Shown piece by piece: positions 1-10,085 of a stretch of DNA of 10,448 nucleotides. The stretch spans positions 1 to 10,448 of the forward strand of contig JAICLN010000119.1 in the NCBI GenBank assembly GCA_025925615.1, read 5' to 3'. Under the pieces are notes generated by a model, which saw only the letters and a list, made by a program, of their open reading frames with translations, did not search any database and was not told the DNA's origin. This stretch comes from Actinomycetospora sp. Lineage in GTDB: Bacteria > Actinomycetota > Actinomycetes > Mycobacteriales > Pseudonocardiaceae. Every line of letters starts with the position of its first letter. The stretch's first letter is position 1. Position numbers and translations under genes: made by a program.

Positions 1-1668
1 CGGGGGAGCGGGCGCGGCCGGGGCGCTCGAGGCGGGCGCGCCGAACGCCGAGGCCGCGTCCGGGACCGCGGTGACCGCGAGCGCGCCGCGGGCGTCCCGG
101 CCGACCACGACGGTCGCGACGGCGGTGCTCGGCACCGGCACCGTCGCGACGGCGGTCTCGCCGTTGTTCGTCCGGACGTCCATCGTCCAGGTCTTGGCGT
201 CGACCTCGGTGTACGAGGAGCCCGAGGCGTAGAGCAGGCCCTGGGCGAGCGCGCCGCCGCCGCGGGCGACGACGTCGACGGGCCCGACCCCGGCAGCCGC
301 CGACACCACGCGGACGAAGGCCTTGCCGGGCGGGGCGAGCGTGCTGCCGTCCGTGAGGACCTCGGCCTGCGGGGTGTCGTTCGGCCCCACGTCGACGAAG
401 GCGGCGGTCTGCGCCGTCCGCGGGCCGACCGCGACGTAGGCGGTGAGGGCCGGCGGGGATGACGGGGAGGCCCCGGCCGGACGGGCCTGGAGCGTGTAGA
501 CGCCGGGCGTGGCCGCAAGGTAGCTGCTGATGCCGCGGTAGCTGACGTCGGAGGCGACCTTCGTCAGGGGGAGCCCGGGGCCCTCGGCGTACATGTCGAC
601 CGCGCCGGTCGAGGGGGAGAGGTGCGCGACGCGCAGCACACCCTGGTCGCCGGTCGGCGGACCGAACAGCGGGAGCGCCGAGGGGAGCGCCGGGGTCTCG
701 ATCAGGCCTGCGAGCACGTCGGCGGGCGCGAGGAGGGGCGCCGACTGCGCGAGCGGATCGGTCGCGGTGAGCGGGGGGAGAGGCAGGGCCGGCAGCGCGA
801 TCGGAGGCAGCGCGATCGGAGGCAGGGCGACCGGAGGCCGGGGGACCGGAGGCAGCGACACCGACGGCACGGAGACCGCGGGCAGCGAGACAAGGGGGAG
901 GGATACCGAGGGAAGGGACACCGGGGGGACGGAGACCGACGGGACCTGCACCGCCGGGAGCGAGACGGGCGGCAACGAGACCGGCGGGACCTGGACCGCG
1001 GGCAGGGACGCGGCGGGGACCTGCACGGCGGGGACCTGCACGGCGGGGACCTGCACGGCGGGGACCTGCACGGCGGGGACCTCGGCCGCCGGCAGCCGGA
1101 CGGGAGGCACCTGGACGGCCGGCACCTGGACGGCGGGGAGGGCCGGGGCCGGCGCGGCCGGTGCCTTCGACGCGGGAGCGGACACCGCCTTCGGAGCCGC
1201 CCGGAGCACCCGCGGGACGAGCCCGCCGTGTGAACTGCGCTCCGACGACGAGTCGGATGCGGATGGCGAGTCGGAGGACCTCGAGTCCGCGCGCGACTTC
1301 GAGTCGGAGGACTTCGAGCCGGACGAGGACCCCGACCCCGACGAGGACCCCGACCCCGACGAGGACCCCCTCGAGCCCGACGACGAGGACCCCTTCGACC
1401 CGGAGCCCGAGTCACCCGGATGCGAGGAGGCCGAGCCCGAGGGACCGTCGCCCAGATCGAGGACCGCACCGCCGGACCCGGACCCGTGCGACCCCGATCC
1501 CGACCCGGAGGACGAGCCGCCCCCGTCGTCGTCGTGATCGGCGAGGAGCACCGGCCCCCCGGCCGCGAGCACCGTCGGAGGGCCGCCGGGCGCCGACGTC
1601 GTCGCCACCACGAGCCCGAAGGCCGAGGTCACCACCGCTGCCGTCGCCGCCCGCGCACTGCGTCTCAT
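1..1668 (-). CDS. Secreted DUF4397-domain surface protein with Ser/Gly stalk and Pro-Val pentapeptide repeats (3' end outside window)
   Basis: The frame is open for 556 codons from the ATG at 1668 to the left edge, so the C-terminus is missing. GGGAG lies 9 bases upstream (1678-1682), and a TGA (1684-1686) precedes the start in frame. Residues 1-35 read as an Arg-led hydrophobic export signal. Residues about 52-140 are Ser/Gly-rich with later Lys, Asp and Arg. Residues 177-301 are 25 pentapeptides of form [LV]-P-x-[VI]-x. From about residue 343 a DUF4397-type domain begins (RVAHLSPSTGAVDMY) and runs to about 545, where Ala/Pro-rich sequence starts. DUF4397 domains are beta-rich and typical of exported or wall-associated proteins. 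The layout (signal, flexible stalk, stiff repeat, folded domain) suggests a surface protein that holds its domain away from the membrane. The anchor, if any, is outside the window. No enzymatic role is visible. The family call is confident; the function is unknown. Confidence 0.88.
   Translation of the reverse strand, partial: MRRSARAATAAVVTSAFGLVVATTSAPGGPPTVLAAGGPVLLADHDDDGGGSSSGSGSGSHGSGSGGAVLDLGDGPSGSASSHPGDSGSGSKGSSSSGSRGSSSGSGSSSGSGSSSGSKSSDSKSRADSRSSDSPSASDSSSERSSHGGLVPRVLRAAPKAVSAPASKAPAAPAPALPAVQVPAVQVPPVRLPAAEVPAVQVPAVQVPAVQVPAVQVPAASLPAVQVPPVSLPPVSLPAVQVPSVSVPPVSLPSVSLPLVSLPAVSVPSVSLPPVPRPPVALPPIALPPIALPALPLPPLTATDPLAQSAPLLAPADVLAGLIETPALPSALPLFGPPTGDQGVLRVAHLSPSTGAVDMYAEGPGLPLTKVASDVSYRGISSYLAATPGVYTLQARPAGASPSSPPALTAYVAVGPRTAQTAAFVDVGPNDTPQAEVLTDGSTLAPPGKAFVRVVSAAAGVGPVDVVARGGGALAQGLLYASGSSYTEVDAKTWTMDVRTNNGETAVATVPVPSTAVATVVVGRDARGALAVTAVPDAASAFGAPASSAPAAPAPP
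766..1140 (-). repeat. 15-bp tandem repeat encoding 25 [LV]PxVx pentapeptides
   Basis: The array is exactly 375 bases, 25 units of 15. Four adjacent units at 1021-1080 are identical in DNA (ctgcacggcggggac, VPAVQ on the coding strand). Flanking units drift to VPPVS, LPSVS, LPAVS and LPPIA. Identical units in the N-proximal part and diverged ones toward the DUF4397 domain suggest recent expansion at that end. Proline every fifth residue should give an extended, non-globular rod. Confidence 0.9.
1322..1369 (-). repeat. 18-bp direct repeat in the Ser/Gly stalk
   Basis: The unit gacgaggaccccgacccc is present twice exactly (1322-1339 and 1340-1357), followed by the first 12 bases of a third. On the minus strand it encodes a Gly-Ser-rich hexapeptide of the stalk. 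The length could vary by slippage. Confidence 0.75.
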
Positions 1669-1908
1669 CGAGCGCCGCTCCCGTCACGTTCCGGCCGCTC
1701 CCGCGTCTCGAGAGCGATCACTCGATGGGGGAACGACGCTCACCCGTTCGCGTGACGCCGAAAGCGCGGACACCGGAGTGTGACGAGCGGCGTCAGCAGC
1801 CCCGGACGCGAAGCCTGCGCTCCGACAGCGAGCCTCGTGCCAGGCATCGTCAGGTGATCGTCAGCGGAGCGCCGGTCGTGGGGCCCGCGGTCGGGGACCG
1901 TGGAGGGC
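1669..1908. promoter_or_regulatory. Divergent intergenic region between DUF4397 and DUF2252 genes
   Basis: About 240 bases without a convincing ORF. It holds a tandem octamer box at 1846-1864 (separate entry). Three short inverted repeats are also visible: TCGAG-N8-CTCGA at 1708-1725, GAACG-N9-CGTTC at 1731-1749, and TGACG-N5-CGTCA at 1781-1795. The first two lie 40-80 bases upstream of the DUF4397 start and could be regulator sites for it. I see no clear -10/-35 pair for either gene. Confidence 0.45.
1846..1864 (+). promoter_or_regulatory. Tandem ATCGTCAG box upstream of DUF2252 (putative response-regulator site)
   Basis: ATCGTCAG at 1846-1853 is repeated exactly at 1857-1864, an 11-bp period with a 3-base spacer (gtg). 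The box ends 44 bases before the ATG at 1909. The same box, with one base changed over 20 bp, lies 44 bases before the PBP start. Direct repeats with a one-helical-turn period are the known binding geometry of OmpR/PhoB-family regulators; the identity of the regulator is inference. Confidence 0.6.
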
Positions 1909-3258
1909 ATGAGCGACGTGGTCCACCACCTCGAGACCGAGGACACCGACGAGCGCACCCGCACCATCATCGACACCCTCCTCGACAACTCCGCGGACCT
2001 CATGGTCGCGAGCCCGGCCGCGTTCCGCGCGAAGTTCCGGAAGATGGCCGCTGACCCCTTCGCGTTCTACCGCGGCAGTGCCTGGCTGTTCTACGCCGAC
2101 CTGGCCCGGCTCGAGGATCCGTGGGTCGACGAGCGCACGCGGCGGGTGTGGATCCAGGGTGACCTGCACGCCGGCAACTTCGGCACCTCGATGGCTGGCG
2201 ACGGCGCGCTCGTGTTCGGGGTGAACGACTTCGACGAGTCCTACCTCGGGCACTTCACCTGGGACATCGAGCGGCTCGTGGCCAGTGTCGCGCTCCTCGG
2301 GTGGGCGAAGGCGTTCTCCAACGCCGAGATCGACGATCTCGTCGCCGGCTACGTCCGGAGCTACCTGGCCGCGGTGCGCTCGTTCAGCGGCACCCGGGGC
2401 GAGATCGAGCTCTCGCTGCGGCGGGGCACCACCACTGGAGTGGTGCACGACGCCCTGGTGCGCGCCCGTCACCGGAACCGGGAGACGCTGCTGGCGTCGC
2501 TGACCGAGGTCGAGGGGGAGGGGCGGGTGTTCCGCGACGGTGCGGGCGTCCGCCGGCTGGGGGACGAGGAGAGGGTCGAGGTCGAGGCCGCGTTCGGGCG
2601 CTACCGGGCGACGATCCCGCGGGGCAAGCGGCTCCCCGACGCGGCCTACACCGTCGTGGACGTCGTGGGTCGCAGCGGGTTCGGGATCGGCAGTGCGGGA
2701 CTGCCCGCGTACACGGTGCTCGTCGAGGGATTCGACGAGGCCCTCGAGAACGACGTGCTGATCTCCATGAAGCGGGCCGTGCCGCCCGCGCCGAGCCGGA
2801 TCGTCGACGACGAGCGCACCCGCTCGGCGTTCACCGATCACGGTCATCGCACCGCGACCTCCCAGCGGGCCCTCCAGGCGCAGGCCGACCGGTTCCTCGG
2901 CCACACCCGGATCGCCGGGGTCGGTTACGTGGTGGCGGAGCTCTCGCCCTACGAGACCGACCTGGACTGGGACGAGGTCACCGAGCCGGAGGACGCCGCG
3001 GAGGTCCTGGCCCATCTGGGGCGGGCGACGGCGAAGGCCCACTGCGTGTCCGATGCGGACGCCGAGACGGACCTGGTCCCGTTCCAGGTCGAGGACGCCG
3101 TGCTGGCGGTGCTCGAGGGCCGGGAGGCGGACTTCGTCGACGCGATGACGCGTTTCGCGCGCCGGTACGCCGCGCGGGTCCGCGACGATCACCGGCTGTT
3201 CGTGGAAGCCTTCCGCAGCGACCGGATCCCCGGCGTCACGAGCACCCACCGAGCCTGA
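1909..3258 (+). CDS. DUF2252 family protein (kinase-like fold)
   Basis: A 449-residue protein, the usual size for DUF2252. Numbered from the ATG at 1909, it carries the family hallmarks DPFAFYRGS (49-57), QGDLHAGNFG (83-92) and GVNDFDE (104-110). The GDLHxxN and DFD pattern resembles the catalytic and metal-binding loops of aminoglycoside-phosphotransferase/protein-kinase-like folds. ATP-dependent phosphotransfer is therefore plausible, but no substrate is established for this family. There is no signal peptide or membrane segment, so it is cytoplasmic. The start is uncertain: GTG at 1900 is in frame, and GTG at 1918 has GGAGGG 10 bases upstream. I chose ATG 1909 because its TGGAG context and its 44-base distance from the octamer box match the PBP gene. 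The gene stands alone and converges on the PBP gene. The shared upstream box suggests co-regulation with envelope genes. Confidence 0.88.
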   Translation: MSDVVHHLETEDTDERTRTIIDTLLDNSADLMVASPAAFRAKFRKMAADPFAFYRGSAWLFYADLARLEDPWVDERTRRVWIQGDLHAGNFGTSMAGDGALVFGVNDFDESYLGHFTWDIERLVASVALLGWAKAFSNAEIDDLVAGYVRSYLAAVRSFSGTRGEIELSLRRGTTTGVVHDALVRARHRNRETLLASLTEVEGEGRVFRDGAGVRRLGDEERVEVEAAFGRYRATIPRGKRLPDAAYTVVDVVGRSGFGIGSAGLPAYTVLVEGFDEALENDVLISMKRAVPPAPSRIVDDERTRSAFTDHGHRTATSQRALQAQADRFLGHTRIAGVGYVVAELSPYETDLDWDEVTEPEDAAEVLAHLGRATAKAHCVSDADAETDLVPFQVEDAVLAVLEGREADFVDAMTRFARRYAARVRDDHRLFVEAFRSDRIPGVTSTHRA

Positions 3259-3259
3259 G

Positions 3260-3283
3260 GCCGACCGCCGCGTACCGATCGGC
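3260..3283 (-). terminator. Hairpin filling the gap between convergent genes
   Basis: GCCGACCG (3260-3267) pairs with CGATCGGC (3276-3283) across an 8-base loop. On the minus strand all 8 pairs form, one as G-U; on the plus strand one pair is a C-A mismatch. It occupies nearly all 25 bases between the DUF2252 and PBP stop codons. There is no T-tract, as is common in high-GC actinobacteria. The better pairing on the minus strand favours a role in ending the PBP transcript. Confidence 0.55.
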
Positions 3284-5290
3284 TCACGGGCCAACGGCCG
3301 GTCCGGGCCGGGCGGGCAACGGGGTCATCATCGTGTACCAGGTGCGGGCGGGGAGGGATCCGCCGGTGAGATCGCCGGTCTCGCACGTGCGAACCGGGTC
3401 GAGGCAGACCGGCTGCGGAGCCCCGCGGTCGGAGAACGTCATCACCGACGCGGCGTAGCGGTCGGTCGCCCCGAGGAAGGCCGCCGAGGCGGATCGCTGG
3501 GTCGTGCCGGTCTTGCTGATCATCGGCCGATGCCATCCGGCGGCGTCGGCGGCCCCGGCCGAGGTGCCGACGGTGTGGTCGTCGCCGAGGGCGGAGCGCA
3601 GCGCGGCGGCGACGTCGGGGGACACGGCGCGCGCGCAGGCCTGCCGCGGGATCCCGACCGCGGTGCCCGTGCGGTCGGTGACGGAGGTGAGCAGGCTCGG
3701 GGGGCACCAGACGCCCCCGGAGACGATCGTGGCGGCGACGTTCGCGAGGTCGAGCGGACTGGTCGGGTCGGGCCCGAGGGTGAACGAGGCCCGGTGCCCG
3801 GCGACGACCTCGTCGGCGAGGCTGCGCCCGTCGGGCCCCCGCGCGGCCAGCGTCGTCCGCAGTCCGAGCCGGCGGGCCACGTCGACGATCGGGGCGATCG
3901 ACCCGATGCGGTCCTCGAGCGCGACGAACGGCGTGTTGGGCGAGACCGCCAGGGCGTGCCGCACCGTCAGGCGGTCGTCGTACGACCCCAGGTTCTCCAC
4001 GCTGTAGCGGCGGCCGAAGGCCGTGGAGGTGTAGCGGGCGGGGACGTCGAGGACGGTGTCGGGGGTGACCAGTCCCCGTTCCAGCGCCGCGGCCACGGTG
4101 AAGATCTTGTAGATCGACCCTGCGCCGCGCAGGGGCGCGGTGACCAGCGGCAGCGCGCTCTGCCCGTCGTTCCGGTCGTTGCCGTAGGTCCGGTTGGCCG
4201 CCAGCGCCAGCACCGGGCGACGTTCGGTGCCCGGAGCGACCACCGCGGTCACATCGGCGACGCCGCCGGTGCCCGGTGCGGCGTCGAGCGTGGCCCGGCG
4301 GGCCCGGGTCGTGACGCGCGGGTCGAGGGTGGTGTCGACCGTGTAGCCGCCGGTGGCCAGCGCGTCGTGGTCGAGCCCGAGTCCGGCGAGGCGGTCGAGG
4401 GCGGCGCGGCAGAAGAAGCCGGTGCCGGGCCGCGCGCCGGTGCAGCCCTCGGGTGGCACGTGCGGGTCCGGGCGCACCCCGAGCGGTGCCGCGCGGGCCG
4501 CTGCGGCCTGGGACGAGGCGAGGGAACCGACCTCGAGCATCGCCTGGATCACCTCGTCGCGCCGGGCGCGCGCCTGGTCCGGATGGGTCGCGGGGTCGTA
4601 GCCGCCGGGCGAGCGCACCAGGCCGGCGAGCAAGGCCGCCTGGGGCACCGTCAGGGCGTCGGCGTCGACGCCGAAGTACGTCCGGGCCGCGGCCTGGACG
4701 CCGTAGGCACCGTTCCCGAAGTAGACCAGGTCCAGGTACCGGGTGAGGATCTGCTGCTTGTCGAGCCGTCCCTCGACCCGACGGGCGAGCCGCACCTCGG
4801 TGAGCTTGCGGGCGAGCGTGTCGGCGGTCGCGGCCTCCCGCTCGGCCGGGGTGTCGGCGAGCGCGTAGAGCCGGAGGTTCTTGACGTACTGCATCGTGAT
4901 CGTCGACGCGCCCTGACCCTCGAGCGGTGTGCCGCGGACCGCGTTGCTCACCAGCGCCCGCGCCAGCCCGTGCCAGTCGACGCCGTCGTGGACGAAGAAC
5001 CGGCGGTCCTCGATGGCGACGATCGCCGCCTTCATCGTCCGGGCGATCCCGGCCGCCGGAACCGGCAGCCGGAAGCGGCGGTAGAGGTACGCGATCGGGG
5101 CGCCGGTGTCGTCGAGGAGCACCGAGGCGGCGTCCGGCCGGGCCTGCGCCAGCGACGCACTCGTCGCGCCGATCCCCGTACTCGCCCGCGCGAGCAGCGC
5201 GGCGCCCCCGACGGCCGGGGGTGCCAGCAGCAGCGCCACCACGGTCCCGGCCACCGCACACACGCCGAGTGCCCGTGTCGTCAGCCCCAT
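3284..5290 (-). CDS. Class A penicillin-binding protein (bifunctional glycosyltransferase/transpeptidase)
   Basis: A 668-residue protein with one N-terminal membrane helix (about 9-34) and both catalytic domains outside the cell. The glycosyltransferase family 51 domain shows EDRRFF with the catalytic Glu at 94, GASTITMQ (127-134), RKLTEVRLA (161-169) and the YFGNGAYG region (190-197). The transpeptidase domain shows all three motifs: SIYK with nucleophile Ser392, SPN at 450-452 and KTG at 593-595. It should polymerise lipid II into glycan strands and cross-link the stem peptides. Two cysteine pairs (283/294 and 629/636) could form disulfides. The start is the first ATG after an in-frame TGA; its GGAG lies only 2 bases upstream, which is unusually close. 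Upstream is the tandem octamer box, and the lipoprotein/HtrA operon is divergent. No cytoplasmic N-terminal extension of note and no PASTA domain are seen. It is a complete gene; which PBP paralogue it is cannot be told from one window. Confidence 0.95.
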   Translation of the reverse strand: MGLTTRALGVCAVAGTVVALLLAPPAVGGAALLARASTGIGATSASLAQARPDAASVLLDDTGAPIAYLYRRFRLPVPAAGIARTMKAAIVAIEDRRFFVHDGVDWHGLARALVSNAVRGTPLEGQGASTITMQYVKNLRLYALADTPAEREAATADTLARKLTEVRLARRVEGRLDKQQILTRYLDLVYFGNGAYGVQAAARTYFGVDADALTVPQAALLAGLVRSPGGYDPATHPDQARARRDEVIQAMLEVGSLASSQAAAARAAPLGVRPDPHVPPEGCTGARPGTGFFCRAALDRLAGLGLDHDALATGGYTVDTTLDPRVTTRARRATLDAAPGTGGVADVTAVVAPGTERRPVLALAANRTYGNDRNDGQSALPLVTAPLRGAGSIYKIFTVAAALERGLVTPDTVLDVPARYTSTAFGRRYSVENLGSYDDRLTVRHALAVSPNTPFVALEDRIGSIAPIVDVARRLGLRTTLAARGPDGRSLADEVVAGHRASFTLGPDPTSPLDLANVAATIVSGGVWCPPSLLTSVTDRTGTAVGIPRQACARAVSPDVAAALRSALGDDHTVGTSAGAADAAGWHRPMISKTGTTQRSASAAFLGATDRYAASVMTFSDRGAPQPVCLDPVRTCETGDLTGGSLPARTWYTMMTPLPARPGPAVGP

Positions 5291-5300
5291 GACTCCAGAC

Positions 5301-5410
5301 GATCACGAGTCCACGCTCCTGCCCGGTGCGCCACCTGACGATCCCCTGACGATGGCCGTCATGCGGGTCCGCACGCCGCGCGCCGCCGGCCGCTCGGGGT
5401 ACTCGTGATC
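5301..5410. repeat. Perfect 10-bp inverted repeat bracketing the divergent promoter region
   Basis: GATCACGAGT at 5301-5310 is the exact reverse complement of ACTCGTGATC at 5401-5410, with 90 bases between. Read in the direction of each gene, ACTCGTGATC lies 10 bases before the PBP ATG and 1 base before the lipoprotein GTG. The symmetric placement suggests matching promoter or operator elements for the two divergent transcripts. Confidence 0.5.
5335..5353 (-). promoter_or_regulatory. Tandem ATCGTCAG box upstream of the PBP gene
   Basis: On the minus strand ATCGTCAG is read from 5353 to 5346 and again from 5342 to 5335, an 11-bp period with spacer ggg. It ends 44 bases before the PBP ATG and begins 58 bases before the divergent lipoprotein GTG, so it could serve both. 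A third, one-mismatch copy (ATCGTCTG) lies at 5303-5296 close to the PBP start. Confidence 0.6.
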
Positions 5411-5411
5411 C

Positions 5412-5996
5412 GTGCAGCGACGCCTCCTCCTCGCCAGCCTCGCCCCCACGGTGGTCCTCCTGCTGGGGGTCCTCGCCGCGTGCAGCGACAACTCGCGCCC
5501 CGCGCCTCGGGCCCCGCACCCGATGAGTCCCGAGAACGCCTCCCGACCGCCCACCCCGCAGACCTGGCTCGACCAGGTCTGCTCGGCGCTCGGTCCCGCC
5601 GGACGGACCGAAGCGCCCGTCCCCGACGTCGTCGTGTCCGATCTGCCGGGTTCCCGTGACCGGGTGGTGGCGTACCTGTCGTCGCGCATCGACGCCTTCG
5701 ACGCCGCCGCGGACGGGATCAACGCGGCCGGGCCGGCCCCGACCGACGGCGGCCAGTTGGTCACCGAGCCGGTGGTCCGGCTGCTGCGCGAGCGGGCCGC
5801 CACGACGACGAGGTTGCGTGCGGACCTGCAGGCGGTGCCCGACGTCGCACCGCAGACGTTGTTCGAGACCCTCACCCGGGTCCACGACCAGATGGTGCTC
5901 GTCGGTCGGGCCCCCGTCCTGCGTGAGCTCGCGCTGCCGCCGGACCTGGCCCGCAGCGCCGCCACGGTCCCGTCGTGCACGGCGCTCGACCGATGA
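5412..5996 (+). CDS. Unrecognised lipoprotein, first gene of an operon with HtrA
   Basis: A 194-residue protein starting at GTG 5412, the first start after an in-frame TGA (5406-5408); the ribosome site is weak (GGGG 12 bases upstream). The N-terminus is a classic lipoprotein signal: Arg3-Arg4, a hydrophobic stretch, then lipobox L21-A22-A23-C24. The mature part begins with a Pro-rich linker, then TWLDQVC, then largely helical sequence. Mature cysteines at 57 and 189 lie near the two ends and could form a disulfide. I recognise no family. The stop codon overlaps the start of the HtrA-like gene, so the two products are probably made together. A role as a partner, substrate or regulator of the protease at the outer membrane face is inference from this coupling only. 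Confidence 0.8.
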   Translation: MQRRLLLASLAPTVVLLLGVLAACSDNSRPAPRAPHPMSPENASRPPTPQTWLDQVCSALGPAGRTEAPVPDVVVSDLPGSRDRVVAYLSSRIDAFDAAADGINAAGPAPTDGGQLVTEPVVRLLRERAATTTRLRADLQAVPDVAPQTLFETLTRVHDQMVLVGRAPVLRELALPPDLARSAATVPSCTALDR

Positions 5997-7033
5997 GCGG
6001 GGCGAGGTCGGTGACCCCGACGAGGGCCCGGCGCGCGCTGTTCGTCCTCGCCTCGCTCGTCGCCGCGGTCGGGCTGCTGGCCGGCTGCTCCCAGGCCCCT
6101 TCTGCCCCGTCCGCCCCGGCCGCCCCCGCACCGGTGACGTCCGGGCCCACCCCGGCGCTCCCGGATCTGGTGGCGCAGGTCGAGCCGAGCGTGGTGACCG
6201 TGCGGGTGCCCACGGGTCTCGGCAGCGGCGTGGTCTACCGGCCCGACATCATCGTCACCAACCAGCACGTCGTCGGGGACGCACGGGAGGTGTCGCTGCA
6301 GTTCGCCGACGGTTCCAGCGCCCCGGGGCAGGTGCTCGCCGCGGACCGGGTCAGCGATCTGGCCGTGATCCGCAGCGCGCGGGGTGGCCTACCGCCGCTG
6401 CCGGTGCGCACCGACCTGCCCCGGCAGGGCGAGACCGCCCTCGCGCTGGGGAGCCCGCTCGGCCTGGAGAACACCGTGACGGCCGGCATCGTCTCCGCGG
6501 TCGGCCGAGAGCTCCCTCAGCAGAGCTCCGGCAGTGCCGCCGGCCTCATCCAGACCGACGCGCCCATCTCGCCGGGGAACTCCGGGGGCGCGCTGGTCGA
6601 CGGGCACGGCAACCTCATCGGCATCAACGAGATCTACATCCCGCCGGGCGCCGGGGCGGTGTCGCTCGGCTTCGCCATCCCCTCGGTCACGGTGGTCGAC
6701 GCCGTGGACCAGCTGCTGAGCCGTGGCTCGGTCACCCACCCCTACCTGGGCGTCTCCCTGACCCAGCTGACCGACCAGGTGCGTGACCGGCTCGGCGTCC
6801 GGGCCGCCACGGGTGCCGTGGTCCTCGACGTCGCCCCCGGCAGTCCCGCCCAGCAGGCTGGTCTCCAGGCCGGGGACGTCATCACCGCCTTCGCCGGTGC
6901 GCCGGTCGCCTCGGTGCAGGACGTGGTCTCACGCCTCGCGCGGACCACGCCGGGCCAGCAGGTACCGGTCGTCGTCGCCCGCGGGGCCACGACGGTGAAC
7001 CCGACGGTGACGGTGGCGGAGCGGCCGGCCTGA
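5993..7033 (+). CDS. HtrA/DegP-like serine protease (S1C trypsin domain plus PDZ), lipoprotein
   Basis: A 346-residue exported protease. The ATG at 5993 overlaps the preceding stop as ATGA, which sets the start and implies translational coupling. The lipobox is L29-A30-G31-C32, so the mature protein is probably lipid-anchored outside the membrane rather than held by the helix many actinobacterial HtrAs use. A Pro/Ala/Ser-rich linker runs to about residue 55. The trypsin-like domain has the full triad: His92 in TNQHVVG, Asp122 in RVSDLAVI and Ser197 in SPGNSGG. A single PDZ domain (about 250-335) starts at YLGVSL and contains GSPAQQAGLQAGD. Family members degrade or refold damaged exported proteins and respond to envelope stress. 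The neighbours (the upstream lipoprotein and the divergent PBP) fit an envelope maintenance role. All catalytic residues are present. Confidence 0.95.
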   Translation: MSGARSVTPTRARRALFVLASLVAAVGLLAGCSQAPSAPSAPAAPAPVTSGPTPALPDLVAQVEPSVVTVRVPTGLGSGVVYRPDIIVTNQHVVGDAREVSLQFADGSSAPGQVLAADRVSDLAVIRSARGGLPPLPVRTDLPRQGETALALGSPLGLENTVTAGIVSAVGRELPQQSSGSAAGLIQTDAPISPGNSGGALVDGHGNLIGINEIYIPPGAGAVSLGFAIPSVTVVDAVDQLLSRGSVTHPYLGVSLTQLTDQVRDRLGVRAATGAVVLDVAPGSPAQQAGLQAGDVITAFAGAPVASVQDVVSRLARTTPGQQVPVVVARGATTVNPTVTVAERPA

Positions 7034-8239: not shown

Positions 8240-8542
8240 CTATTCCTCCTCGATGGTGTCGATCCCGAGGGGGCGCACCCGTGCCCACGCCAGGAAGATC
8301 GCGGCGACGACGAGCAGGCCGATGCCGGTCCAGAGGTTGATCTCGGTCCCGGCGGCCCGGGCGAGCTGGTCGGGTCCGTCGAGCAGGCCGCGGATCACGA
8401 GGACCACGCCGTAGAGGCCCATCAGGGCGCCGATGACATAGCGGAGATCGAACAGCCGCTGCATGCGGCTCTCGGTCTCGATGGTGGTCTGCGGCGTGCC
8501 CGGCTCGTCCCGGGGCGGTCCGCTCTTGGCTGCTTCGCTCAT
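8240..8542 (-). CDS. Small two-helix membrane protein downstream of the symporter
   Basis: A 100-residue protein starting at ATG 8542 with GGGAG 5 bases upstream (8548-8552). A polar N-terminal tail of about 28 residues precedes RLFDLRYVIG, a first helix at about 34-53, a Gly/Asp/Ala-rich loop, a second helix at about 68-86, and an acidic end (DTIEEE). It begins 14 bases after the symporter stop and was probably cotranscribed with it. From memory, small proteins with this RLFD-start and two helices often follow sodium:solute symporter genes; an accessory-subunit role is inference. The frame upstream stays open by chance into the symporter, which can mislead gene callers into a 569-residue fusion. 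The gene itself looks intact even though the symporter is broken. Confidence 0.8.
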   Translation of the reverse strand: MSEAAKSGPPRDEPGTPQTTIETESRMQRLFDLRYVIGALMGLYGVVLVIRGLLDGPDQLARAAGTEINLWTGIGLLVVAAIFLAWARVRPLGIDTIEEE

Positions 8543-8556
8543 GACGGCTCCCGGTC

Positions 8557-9969
8557 TCAGGCGAAGAGGACGTTGAGGACGACGGTGATGACCAGCGCGA
8601 CCGCGCCGAGCAGCACCGGCTTGCGGTACCAGACCTTCTCCTTGGGCTGGCGCAGCGTCGGGACGGTGCCGTCGGGCCCGGGCACGCCGTAGACGATCCC
8701 GGCGAGCCGCTCGGGCTCGGGCCGGGCCGTGGCGAGCGAGACGACCACGGTGACGATGATGTCGACGAGGAACGCGGCTCCGGCCTGGTAGAAGCTCACC
8801 GCGATGCCAGAGCCGAAGTCCACGACGCCGGCCTCGGCGAGCACGAACACCACGGTGCCCCGCGATGACGCCGGTGAAGAGCCCCGAGAAGCCACCCCAG
8901 CCGGTGGTGCGCTTCCAGAACATGCCGAGGATGAACGTCGCGAAGATCGGTGCATTGAAGATCCCGAAGAGCGACTGCAGGTAGGTCATGATGTTGTTGA
9001 AGGACGAGGCCAGCAGCGCCGTGAAGATCGCGATGACGACCCCGAGGACGGTCACCCAGCGGCCCGCCGTCAGGTAGTAGCGGTCACTGCGGCCCTTCGC
9101 GAGGTAGGGCTGCAGCAGGTCGTAGGTGACGACCGTGTTGAGCGAGCTGACGTTCGCCGCCACGCCGGCCATGAACGAGGCGAACAGGCCGGTGATCGCG
9201 ATGCCGAGCACGCCCTCGGGCAGCAGCTGGCCGATCAGGGCCGGGATCGCGTCGTTGTACTCGAGACCGCCGGCGTTCTCGTTGCCGAAGTTCGGGATGG
9301 CGACGAGGGCGACGAGGCCCGGGATGATCGTGATGGCCGGGATGAAGATCTTGGGGAAGGCGGCGATCAGCGGCGTGCGCTGGCTCGCGCTGCGGTCCTT
9401 GGCGGACAGCGCCCGCTGGATCTCGGCGAAGTTCGTGGTCCAGTAGCCGAAGGACAGGACGAAGCCGAGCCCGAGGACGATCGAGATCCAGTTCGCGCCG
9501 ATGGGGTTGGTGACGCTGCCGATGCCGGTGCCCTGCCAGGCGTGCAGGCCCTCCGGTCCGAGTGCGGACGCCGAGACCTTCTCGGTCAGCGCGGAGTAGC
9601 CGCCGACGTGACGGACCGCGACGATCGCCAGCGGGATCAGACCGGCCAGGATGACGAAGAACTGCAGCACCTCGCCGTAGATCGCGGAGCCCAGCCCGCC
9701 GAAGCCGATGTAGACGAGCACGACCGCGGCCGAGAGCACGATGCCCCAGATCTGCGGCAGGCCCAGCAGGGCGTTGAGCACGATCGCGAGGGCGTAGAGG
9801 TTGACGCCGGCGATGAGCACGGAGGCGACGGCGAAGACGACCGCGTTGAGGACGTGCGTGTAGTTCCGAAGCGGAGCCGGAAGAACTCCGGAACCGATCT
9901 GACCTTCGACCGGTAGTAGTAGATGGCCAGGAGCGTGTAGTCCAGCCATCCCGGGTTCAGGCGCAGCAT
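8557..9969 (-). pseudogene. Sodium:solute symporter (SSS/SLC5 family), N-terminal deletion plus two frameshifts
   Basis: It starts at ATG 9969 with AAGGGG 5 bases upstream (9975-9980). Three frames make one protein: frame A 9969 to about 9868, frame B to about 8862, frame C to the TGA at 8557. The middle part is clear SSS sequence, with YWTTNFAEIQRALSAKD (about 9398-9446) and ANVSSLNTVVTYD (about 9120-9160), the helix with Na-binding serines. First lesion: LDYTLLAIY runs straight into YYRSKVRSVPEFF, skipping the rest of the first helix, the second helix and most of the third, roughly 70-90 residues by family memory. The joined length of about 470 residues against a usual 530-560 agrees. Second: one base is missing near 9866-9867 (GG where GGG restores RFGNYTHVLN). 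Third: one extra G in the run at 8858-8861. Without the core helices transport is unlikely. The adjacent galT suggests galactose or another sugar as the original substrate. Confidence 0.8.
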
Positions 9970-10008
9970 CGCGACCCCTTGCTGTCAGCGGGTTCCGAGA
10001 AGGTTCCC

Positions 10009-10020
10009 GTGAACGTTATC
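10009..10020. promoter_or_regulatory. LacI/GalR-like operator candidate
   Basis: GTGAACGTTATC is centred on AACGTT, with 8 of 12 positions symmetric. A central CG inside A/T-flanked half sites is typical of LacI/GalR-family operators, which often control sugar-use genes. Its position between a symporter and galT fits. The outer arms are imperfect. Confidence 0.3.
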
Positions 10021-10085
10021 GTCAGCCGGGCCACAGGGTCGTACCGACCGGTGGGGAACGTCAAGAGGGCATGAAGCACCAGGTG

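Follow-up and report, generated by a model that had tools for sequence, protein, structure and literature searches.

Genes and tandem boxes in the window

The window, i.e. the whole 10,448-nt stretch of Actinomycetospora sp. DNA analysed here, makes up contig C43 in its entirety; the draft genome to which it belongs comprises 382 contigs totalling 3.52 Mb and is about 60% complete. A gene for a DUF4397 protein with extensin-like proline-rich repeats (1..1668, minus strand) is divergent from a DUF2252 protein gene (PF10009, 355.8 bits; 1909..3258, plus strand). Homologs of the DUF2252 protein from four genomes align from residue 1, with GTG 1900 as another possible start. The minus strand carries at 3284..5290 the gene of a dedicated class A penicillin-binding protein (PBP) with Transgly and Transpeptidase domains. 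Divergent from it, on the plus strand, lie a lipoprotein-like gene (5412..5996, start uncertain), for which no match was found in Pfam or NCBIfam, and the gene of an HtrA-type protease with Trypsin_2 and PDZ domains (5993..7033), which overlaps the end of the lipoprotein-like gene; the two are probably one operon. A membrane protein gene labelled symporter-like by eye (8240-9975, minus strand) is split over two frames at two places, reflecting either a broken gene or assembly errors.

The octamer ATCGTCAG occurs in exact form five times on the two strands of the window, at 1846 (+), 1857 (+), 5335 (-), 5346 (-) and 10018 (+), against a chance expectation of 0.33, and none of 200 shuffles attained five. 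The only exact tandem 19-mers, ATCGTCAG-N3-ATCGTCAG, are at 1846-1864 (plus strand, box 1) and 5335-5353 (minus strand, box 2), both intergenic by our own gene calls. When the preceding C is included, the resulting 20-mers differ at one spacer position, GTG versus GGG. The count of five, the placing of the two tandem boxes and their single difference had all been claimed in an earlier note on this DNA, and are confirmed. A third match at up to three mismatches, 1857-1875, overlaps box 1. The single octamer at 10018-10025, between the frame-broken symporter-like gene and a small ORF, was treated as chance because its 11-bp-shifted neighbours match at only about 4 of 8 bases (by eye).

Box 1 stands 44 nt before the DUF2252 ATG at 1909, in the same direction, and 210 nt before the called start of the DUF4397 gene; it may be common to both genes. 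Box 2 stands 44 nt before the PBP start, in the same direction, and, in the reverse direction, 58 nt before the called lipoprotein start. The earlier note had also counted the lipoprotein/HtrA operon among the box genes; its upstream box is indeed box 2, yet its predicted control is less sure for the very reason that this box is common to PBP.

Distribution of the box in the genome and the genus

The genome scan at up to two mismatches that the earlier note had proposed gave seven tandem sites in the source genome, two of them the window boxes, and none with a reversed control pattern. One site with one mismatch, C100:5245, is followed at 84 nt by the gene of an OmpR-family response regulator (RR), after which comes its kinase gene; another, C379:1020, is intergenic and 8 nt before a called start. 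The sites with two mismatches comprise C100:1312, 111 nt before an ANTAR-domain gene, and two deep within coding sequence on C134 and C378.

Across 18 genomes of the genus 122 sites were found at up to two mismatches, and the genes around all of them were called by a simple codon-composition script, so that called starts are rough. Sites with at most one mismatch (37) are almost wholly intergenic (34 intergenic, 3 at gene edges, none deep in genes). The 85 two-mismatch sites are divided into 28 intergenic, 11 edge and 46 deep in genes; since many genomes have them at homologous positions in coding sequence, the loose matches are mostly background. The reversed-pattern control gave 5 sites in the same genomes versus 122, and a control with a 2-bp spacer gave 39, just one of them at up to one mismatch versus 37 with the 3-bp spacer. 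Two of the three edge sites, G005 C11:255460 and G009 C27:234969, represent one homologous place at overlapping convergent gene ends; they are probably background rather than operators, and were kept in the count of 37. The half-site is CGTCAG. Base frequencies were taken from 36 sites at up to one mismatch in RR-positive genomes, a selection that partly builds in their sharpness.

The adjacent response regulator and kinase

The RR (C100 4462-5160, minus strand) exceeds the Pfam cut-offs for Response_reg (102.9 versus 30.2 bits) and Trans_reg_C (102.1 versus 26.2 bits). The histidine kinase (C100 3083-4465, minus strand) carries HAMP, HisKA and HATPase_c domains, and the motifs around the receiver Asp of the RR and the His of the kinase are both present. 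Judged by its sequence, the RR is a member of the OmpR/PhoB family and a relative of MtrA, yet not MtrA. Its best NCBIfam model is MtrA (NF040689; 254.5 bits, not reaching the cut-off of 300), followed by CseB (NF041733; 237 bits, cut-off 350, not reached); the PhoB model gives 208.9 bits (cut-off 296.2, not reached). The kinase likewise scores 209.7 bits against the MtrB model, below the cut-off of 450. A separate MtrA, at 383-385 bits, is present in five of six genus genomes searched and was not seen in the incomplete G000. A tree of 60 rows sets the RR apart from a 9-row MtrA group and places it in a clade of 20 rows (support 97/97), most of them from Pseudonocardiaceae. The recognition-helix region reads DTRLLDVH[VI]RRLRRK in most rows of the clade and DTRLVNVHVQRLRSK in the MtrA of the genus; to judge by PhoB-type structures, this region is presumably the part that reads the half-site.

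An RR ortholog of 86-91% identity is found in six other genus genomes, with a fragment at a contig end in G004, and A. lemnae has the RR. A homolog of 68-69% identity occurs in G001 (two copies), G003 and G016. There was no RR match at E <= 1e-60 in G007, G008, G012, G014 and G017, and G010 and G015 each hold a match of just 49-50% identity, that of G015 being MtrA. Directly upstream of the boxed RR gene in one locus lies a cytochrome c gene (L008 5279-6025, minus strand) with Pfam cytochrome c domains, which we take to be QcrC-like; in some relatives a symporter occupies its place.

Co-occurrence of box and regulator

A reversed box lies 80-85 nt before the RR gene in all eight genus genomes with a close ortholog (that of G004 being the fragment). 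The 68-69% types (G001, G003, G016) have no box adjacent to the RR gene. Within the genus a site at up to one mismatch is present in 10 of 11 RR-positive genomes (not in G003) versus one of seven RR-negative genomes (G015; Fisher p 0.0025). Nine other genus genomes carry several sites on the RR contig, often within tens of kb; in the source genome the RR-kinase pair (C100) and the window (C43) are on different contigs of the 60% complete draft.

Among 150 Pseudonocardiaceae genomes, with RR presence set at E <= 1e-75, the RR is found in 31, a site at up to one mismatch in 42 and both in 23. Sites thus occur in 23 of 31 RR-positive versus 19 of 119 RR-negative genomes (p 1.3e-9) and, when the genus is left out, in 20 of 27 versus 19 of 117 (p 1.3e-8), all of these tests ignoring phylogeny. 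The eight RR-positive family genomes without such a site include G003. Outside the genus 65 sites were listed; RR-positive genomes account for 36, and 20 of these lie within 20 kb of the RR.

Among the best 80 named loci of RR relatives, 8 of the 10 that belong to the RR clade have a site at up to two mismatches, versus none of the 70 others. The tree includes 30 of the 80 loci, 9 of which fall in the clade; L086 corresponds to G009, and the remaining 49 were counted as outside by lower identity. At exactly three mismatches the same loci give 19 sites, also outside the clade, versus one in the reversed control. The OmpR/PhoB-type geometry proposed earlier is borne out by the 11-bp period and by the partner RR on C100, and the box very probably serves as the operator of this RR, a prediction made on a sequence basis.

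Predicted targets in Actinomycetospora

The clearest candidate target of the RR is the dedicated class A PBP. A box lies 44-45 nt before the PBP gene, in the same direction, in G000, G002, G005, G006, G009, G011 and G013 (in G009 with the start taken as the ATG at L045:13475, the script start being 39 nt further upstream). A BCCT gene precedes PBP in G001 and G016, and a two-mismatch box is 45 nt upstream of BCCT. Only a partial PBP was found in G003, with no box in the locus retrieved, and no PBP was seen in G004. The dedicated PBP form (64-70% identity) is present in 9 of 11 RR-positive versus none of seven RR-negative genus genomes. PBP paralogs of 46-51% identity number 31 among those listed, 21 of them with loci, and one locus holds a site, the G005 convergent-end site already mentioned. 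The boxed PBP gene of G005 breaks off at about 110 codons, with its box kept (L047 10500-11649). Conservation before orthologous PBP and RR genes answers the comparison of upstream regions that the earlier note had suggested.

The distance of 44-45 nt from box to start is common to the DUF2252 gene (ATG 1909), the seven PBP genes and the two BCCT genes; were distances of 20-200 nt equally likely, its chance would be about 1/90 by our arithmetic. GGAG directly precedes the start in 8 of these 10 leaders, and no common -10 element was seen among them by eye.

Other boxed genes are more varied. A Na:alanine symporter has a reversed box in seven genomes, at 39-76 nt by called starts (two being two-mismatch sites), and a lipoprotein gene is boxed in five genomes, again in reverse, so that orientation does not sort the targets simply. 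Boxes stand 111-215 nt from a membrane-protein family (four) and from ANTAR-type genes (three). HtrA shares its box with PBP through the divergent operon in G000 and has two boxes upstream in G009; HtrA of the G002 locus has no box at up to three mismatches. The boxed genes, taken together, include class A PBP, HtrA, lipoprotein and one GlxA-like gene, and also transporters and small unknown proteins. The envelope regulon of the earlier note holds as far as envelope genes are prominent and is too narrow in view of the transporters, the small proteins and, outside the genus, the family of about 71 residues described below; that the regulon concerns stress, we infer.

The DUF2252 link

DUF2252 belongs to the protein kinase clan of Pfam, with flipped lobes, according to the accessible text of PMC9758233. 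Homologs of 65-72% identity are present in 14 other genus genomes, RR-negative ones among them, along with another at 34%. None of the 15 non-self DUF2252 loci of the genus (one being the 34% relative) has a box at up to three mismatches; contig ends limit the upstream sequence of two of these loci, to about 0.16 kb in G004 and 0.95 kb in G008. A regulation of DUF2252 conserved in the genus is thereby rejected, and the link between box and DUF2252 appears, from these loci, confined to this species. The earlier idea of a regulon recruiting DUF2252 therefore stands for this species and fails for the rest of the genus. That the gene is a true target here we consider likely, and its neighbours suggest an envelope role for it.

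The idea that the PBP promoter was copied to DUF2252 in this genome found no support: the leaders are identical at 18 of 44 positions (p 0.39) and the 46 nt upstream at 21 of 46 (p 0.14). Nine leader comparisons were made for DUF2252 and three are nominally low, i.e. with G005 PBP (26/44, p 0.001, still significant when corrected for nine), G001 BCCT (p 0.0065) and G009 PBP (p 0.03); because of these three, the DUF2252 and PBP/BCCT leaders may have a distant common origin. Since within this genome the two leaders, DUF2252 and PBP, resemble each other no more than shuffled sequences do, yet the likeness to G005 PBP exists, the equal spacing could reflect promoter geometry or an old common origin, or the two together.

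Boxed genes outside the genus

Reversed boxes precede the RR gene in Actinophytocola, G145, two G153 loci (two mismatches) and Pseudonocardia autotrophica. Besides the RR, the commonest boxed gene outside the genus encodes a protein family of about 71 residues, sometimes two per locus (L287-L299, L087, L094), for which no Pfam match was found in the one member run. Its boxes are in the same direction, and of 14 distinct genes, with duplicates counted once (G098/Actinophytocola L093; G151:C14/P. hydrocarbonoxydans L094), 10 have the box 54-61 nt upstream of the called start. Five genomes of genus g8 (L301-L305) have an exact box before a secreted-looking family of 205-213 residues, on contigs other than that of the RR. 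No PBP was recognised among boxed genes in the loci read outside the genus. Targets turn over while regulator and box stay. In G019 four half-sites stand in a row with an 11-bp period (L306 3766-3806), beside an integrase-like ORF and a tRNA-like sequence (by eye); this genome has no RR above 54% identity, and the array, which looks like an integration-site repeat, was judged unrelated to the RR.

Proposed system and alternatives

The whole explanation, in which an undescribed Pseudonocardiaceae two-component system has the 19-bp box as its operator and controls a PBP-centred gene set, is quite probable. From the computed sites, their conservation, spacing and co-occurrence with the RR, we infer binding, phosphorylation, activation, signal and function. 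Kinase and RR would act as a canonical pair in which the RR is phosphorylated, and each CGTCAG half-site would take up one of two RR protomers, arranged head to tail at a distance of one helical turn. Phosphorylated RR would most likely activate the PBP, BCCT and DUF2252 promoters from its place 44-45 nt before the start codon, and control its own operon through the reversed box 80-85 nt upstream. The predicted Actinomycetospora regulon would be a partly clustered envelope and solute-transport set around the dedicated class A PBP. In this species DUF2252 may have entered it through the gain of a box at equal spacing, either by new mutation or as an old promoter copy.

Repression from the same operator by the same RR, either generally or of some targets with activation of others, e.g. 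at its own reversed box, is possible and on balance unlikely. The two layouts, same direction at 44-45 nt (PBP, BCCT, DUF2252) and reversed at 80-85 nt (RR), would suit it. Against it, a fixed place upstream of the -35 region, where the box probably lies, is the usual activator layout. MtrA for its part represses some genes, according to the accessible text of PMC5650626. That the box is the site of MtrA itself is improbable, even though MtrA is the best NCBIfam model of the RR, a ATCGTCAC variant precedes homologous genes in G005 and G011, and MtrA sites also have an 11-bp period (a 9-nt repeat plus 2-nt spacing in M. tuberculosis; accessible text of PMC6265350). The MtrA half-sites given in the accessible parts of PMC13189361 and PMC5650626 are GTCACAgcg or GTnAC, not GTCAG. 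MtrA is moreover present in the RR-negative G015 (385 bits; one site) and in G003 (no site at up to one mismatch), and the sites track a non-MtrA RR and precede its gene.

That an alternative sigma factor reads the box as a core promoter element could draw on the fixed start-codon distance of several genes, but is very improbable, as the box occurs in both orientations, lies 80-85 nt from the RR start and tracks the RR gene throughout a family. Nor does a tandem repeat with an 11-bp period have the shape of an ECF -35 element. A dispersed repeat or a coincidence of coding sequence, with no regulatory role, would fit the recurring two-mismatch sites in coding sequence and is scarcely credible for the boxes, since sites at up to one mismatch are absent deep in coding sequence and the box is the only element clearly common to the two window promoters and is kept in orthologous promoters of other species.

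The proposed two-component system resembles several known systems in part. The Pho box of PhoB has head-to-tail half-sites of 11-bp period with a TGTCA-like core in an activator layout near -35; the RR misses the PhoB cut-off, and no phosphate genes were seen among the boxed genes annotated. CseB/CseC of Streptomyces has an OmpR-family RR too and an envelope stress theme, but the CseB cut-off is not reached by the RR and no sigma factor gene was called beside it (by eye). MtrAB of Mycobacterium, Corynebacterium and Streptomyces is likewise composed of an OmpR-family RR and a HAMP/HisKA/HATPase kinase, with an 11-bp direct-repeat site. The C100 system differs from it in falling below both model cut-offs (RR and kinase), in its half-site (CGTCAG versus GTCACA or GTnAC), in residues of the recognition-helix region and in having no lpqB-like gene directly after the kinase. 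MtrAB governs osmotic and cell-wall genes (accessible text of PMC13189361 and PMC6265350), and in C. glutamicum it senses osmotic stress and activates betP and proP (accessible text of PMC13189361). Given this parallel, and with BCCT and PBP among the predicted targets, the most plausible signal is osmotic or cell-wall stress; that the signal is envelope or osmotic could go either way. An evenly balanced judgement applies also to the joint claim that, in some species of the genus and not in others, an MtrA-like system with a private operator governs an accessory module for envelope and osmoprotection, made up of the dedicated class A PBP, a lipoprotein, BCCT and Na:alanine transporters and in some cases HtrA, and that outsiders such as DUF2252 join the module by gaining a box at a fixed start-codon distance.

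Family and site geometry are already known; as far as the open-access literature searched goes, in which no description of this system was recognised, the system, its half-site and its regulon appear to be new. An operator and a candidate regulon would be assigned to an uncharacterised Pseudonocardiaceae two-component system. MtrA and the RR, with equal site geometry and different half-sites in one cell, make cross-binding avoidance by OmpR-family paralogs directly testable. A predicted regulatory context is also gained, in one species only, for one DUF2252 gene, the product of which has a kinase-like fold and no assigned function. As a separate observation, ATCGTCACCCGATCGTCAC lies 27 nt before homologous genes of about 490 codons in G005 (L230 2077) and G011 (L235 2014), and is possibly a site of MtrA or of another paralog with a GTCAC half-site.
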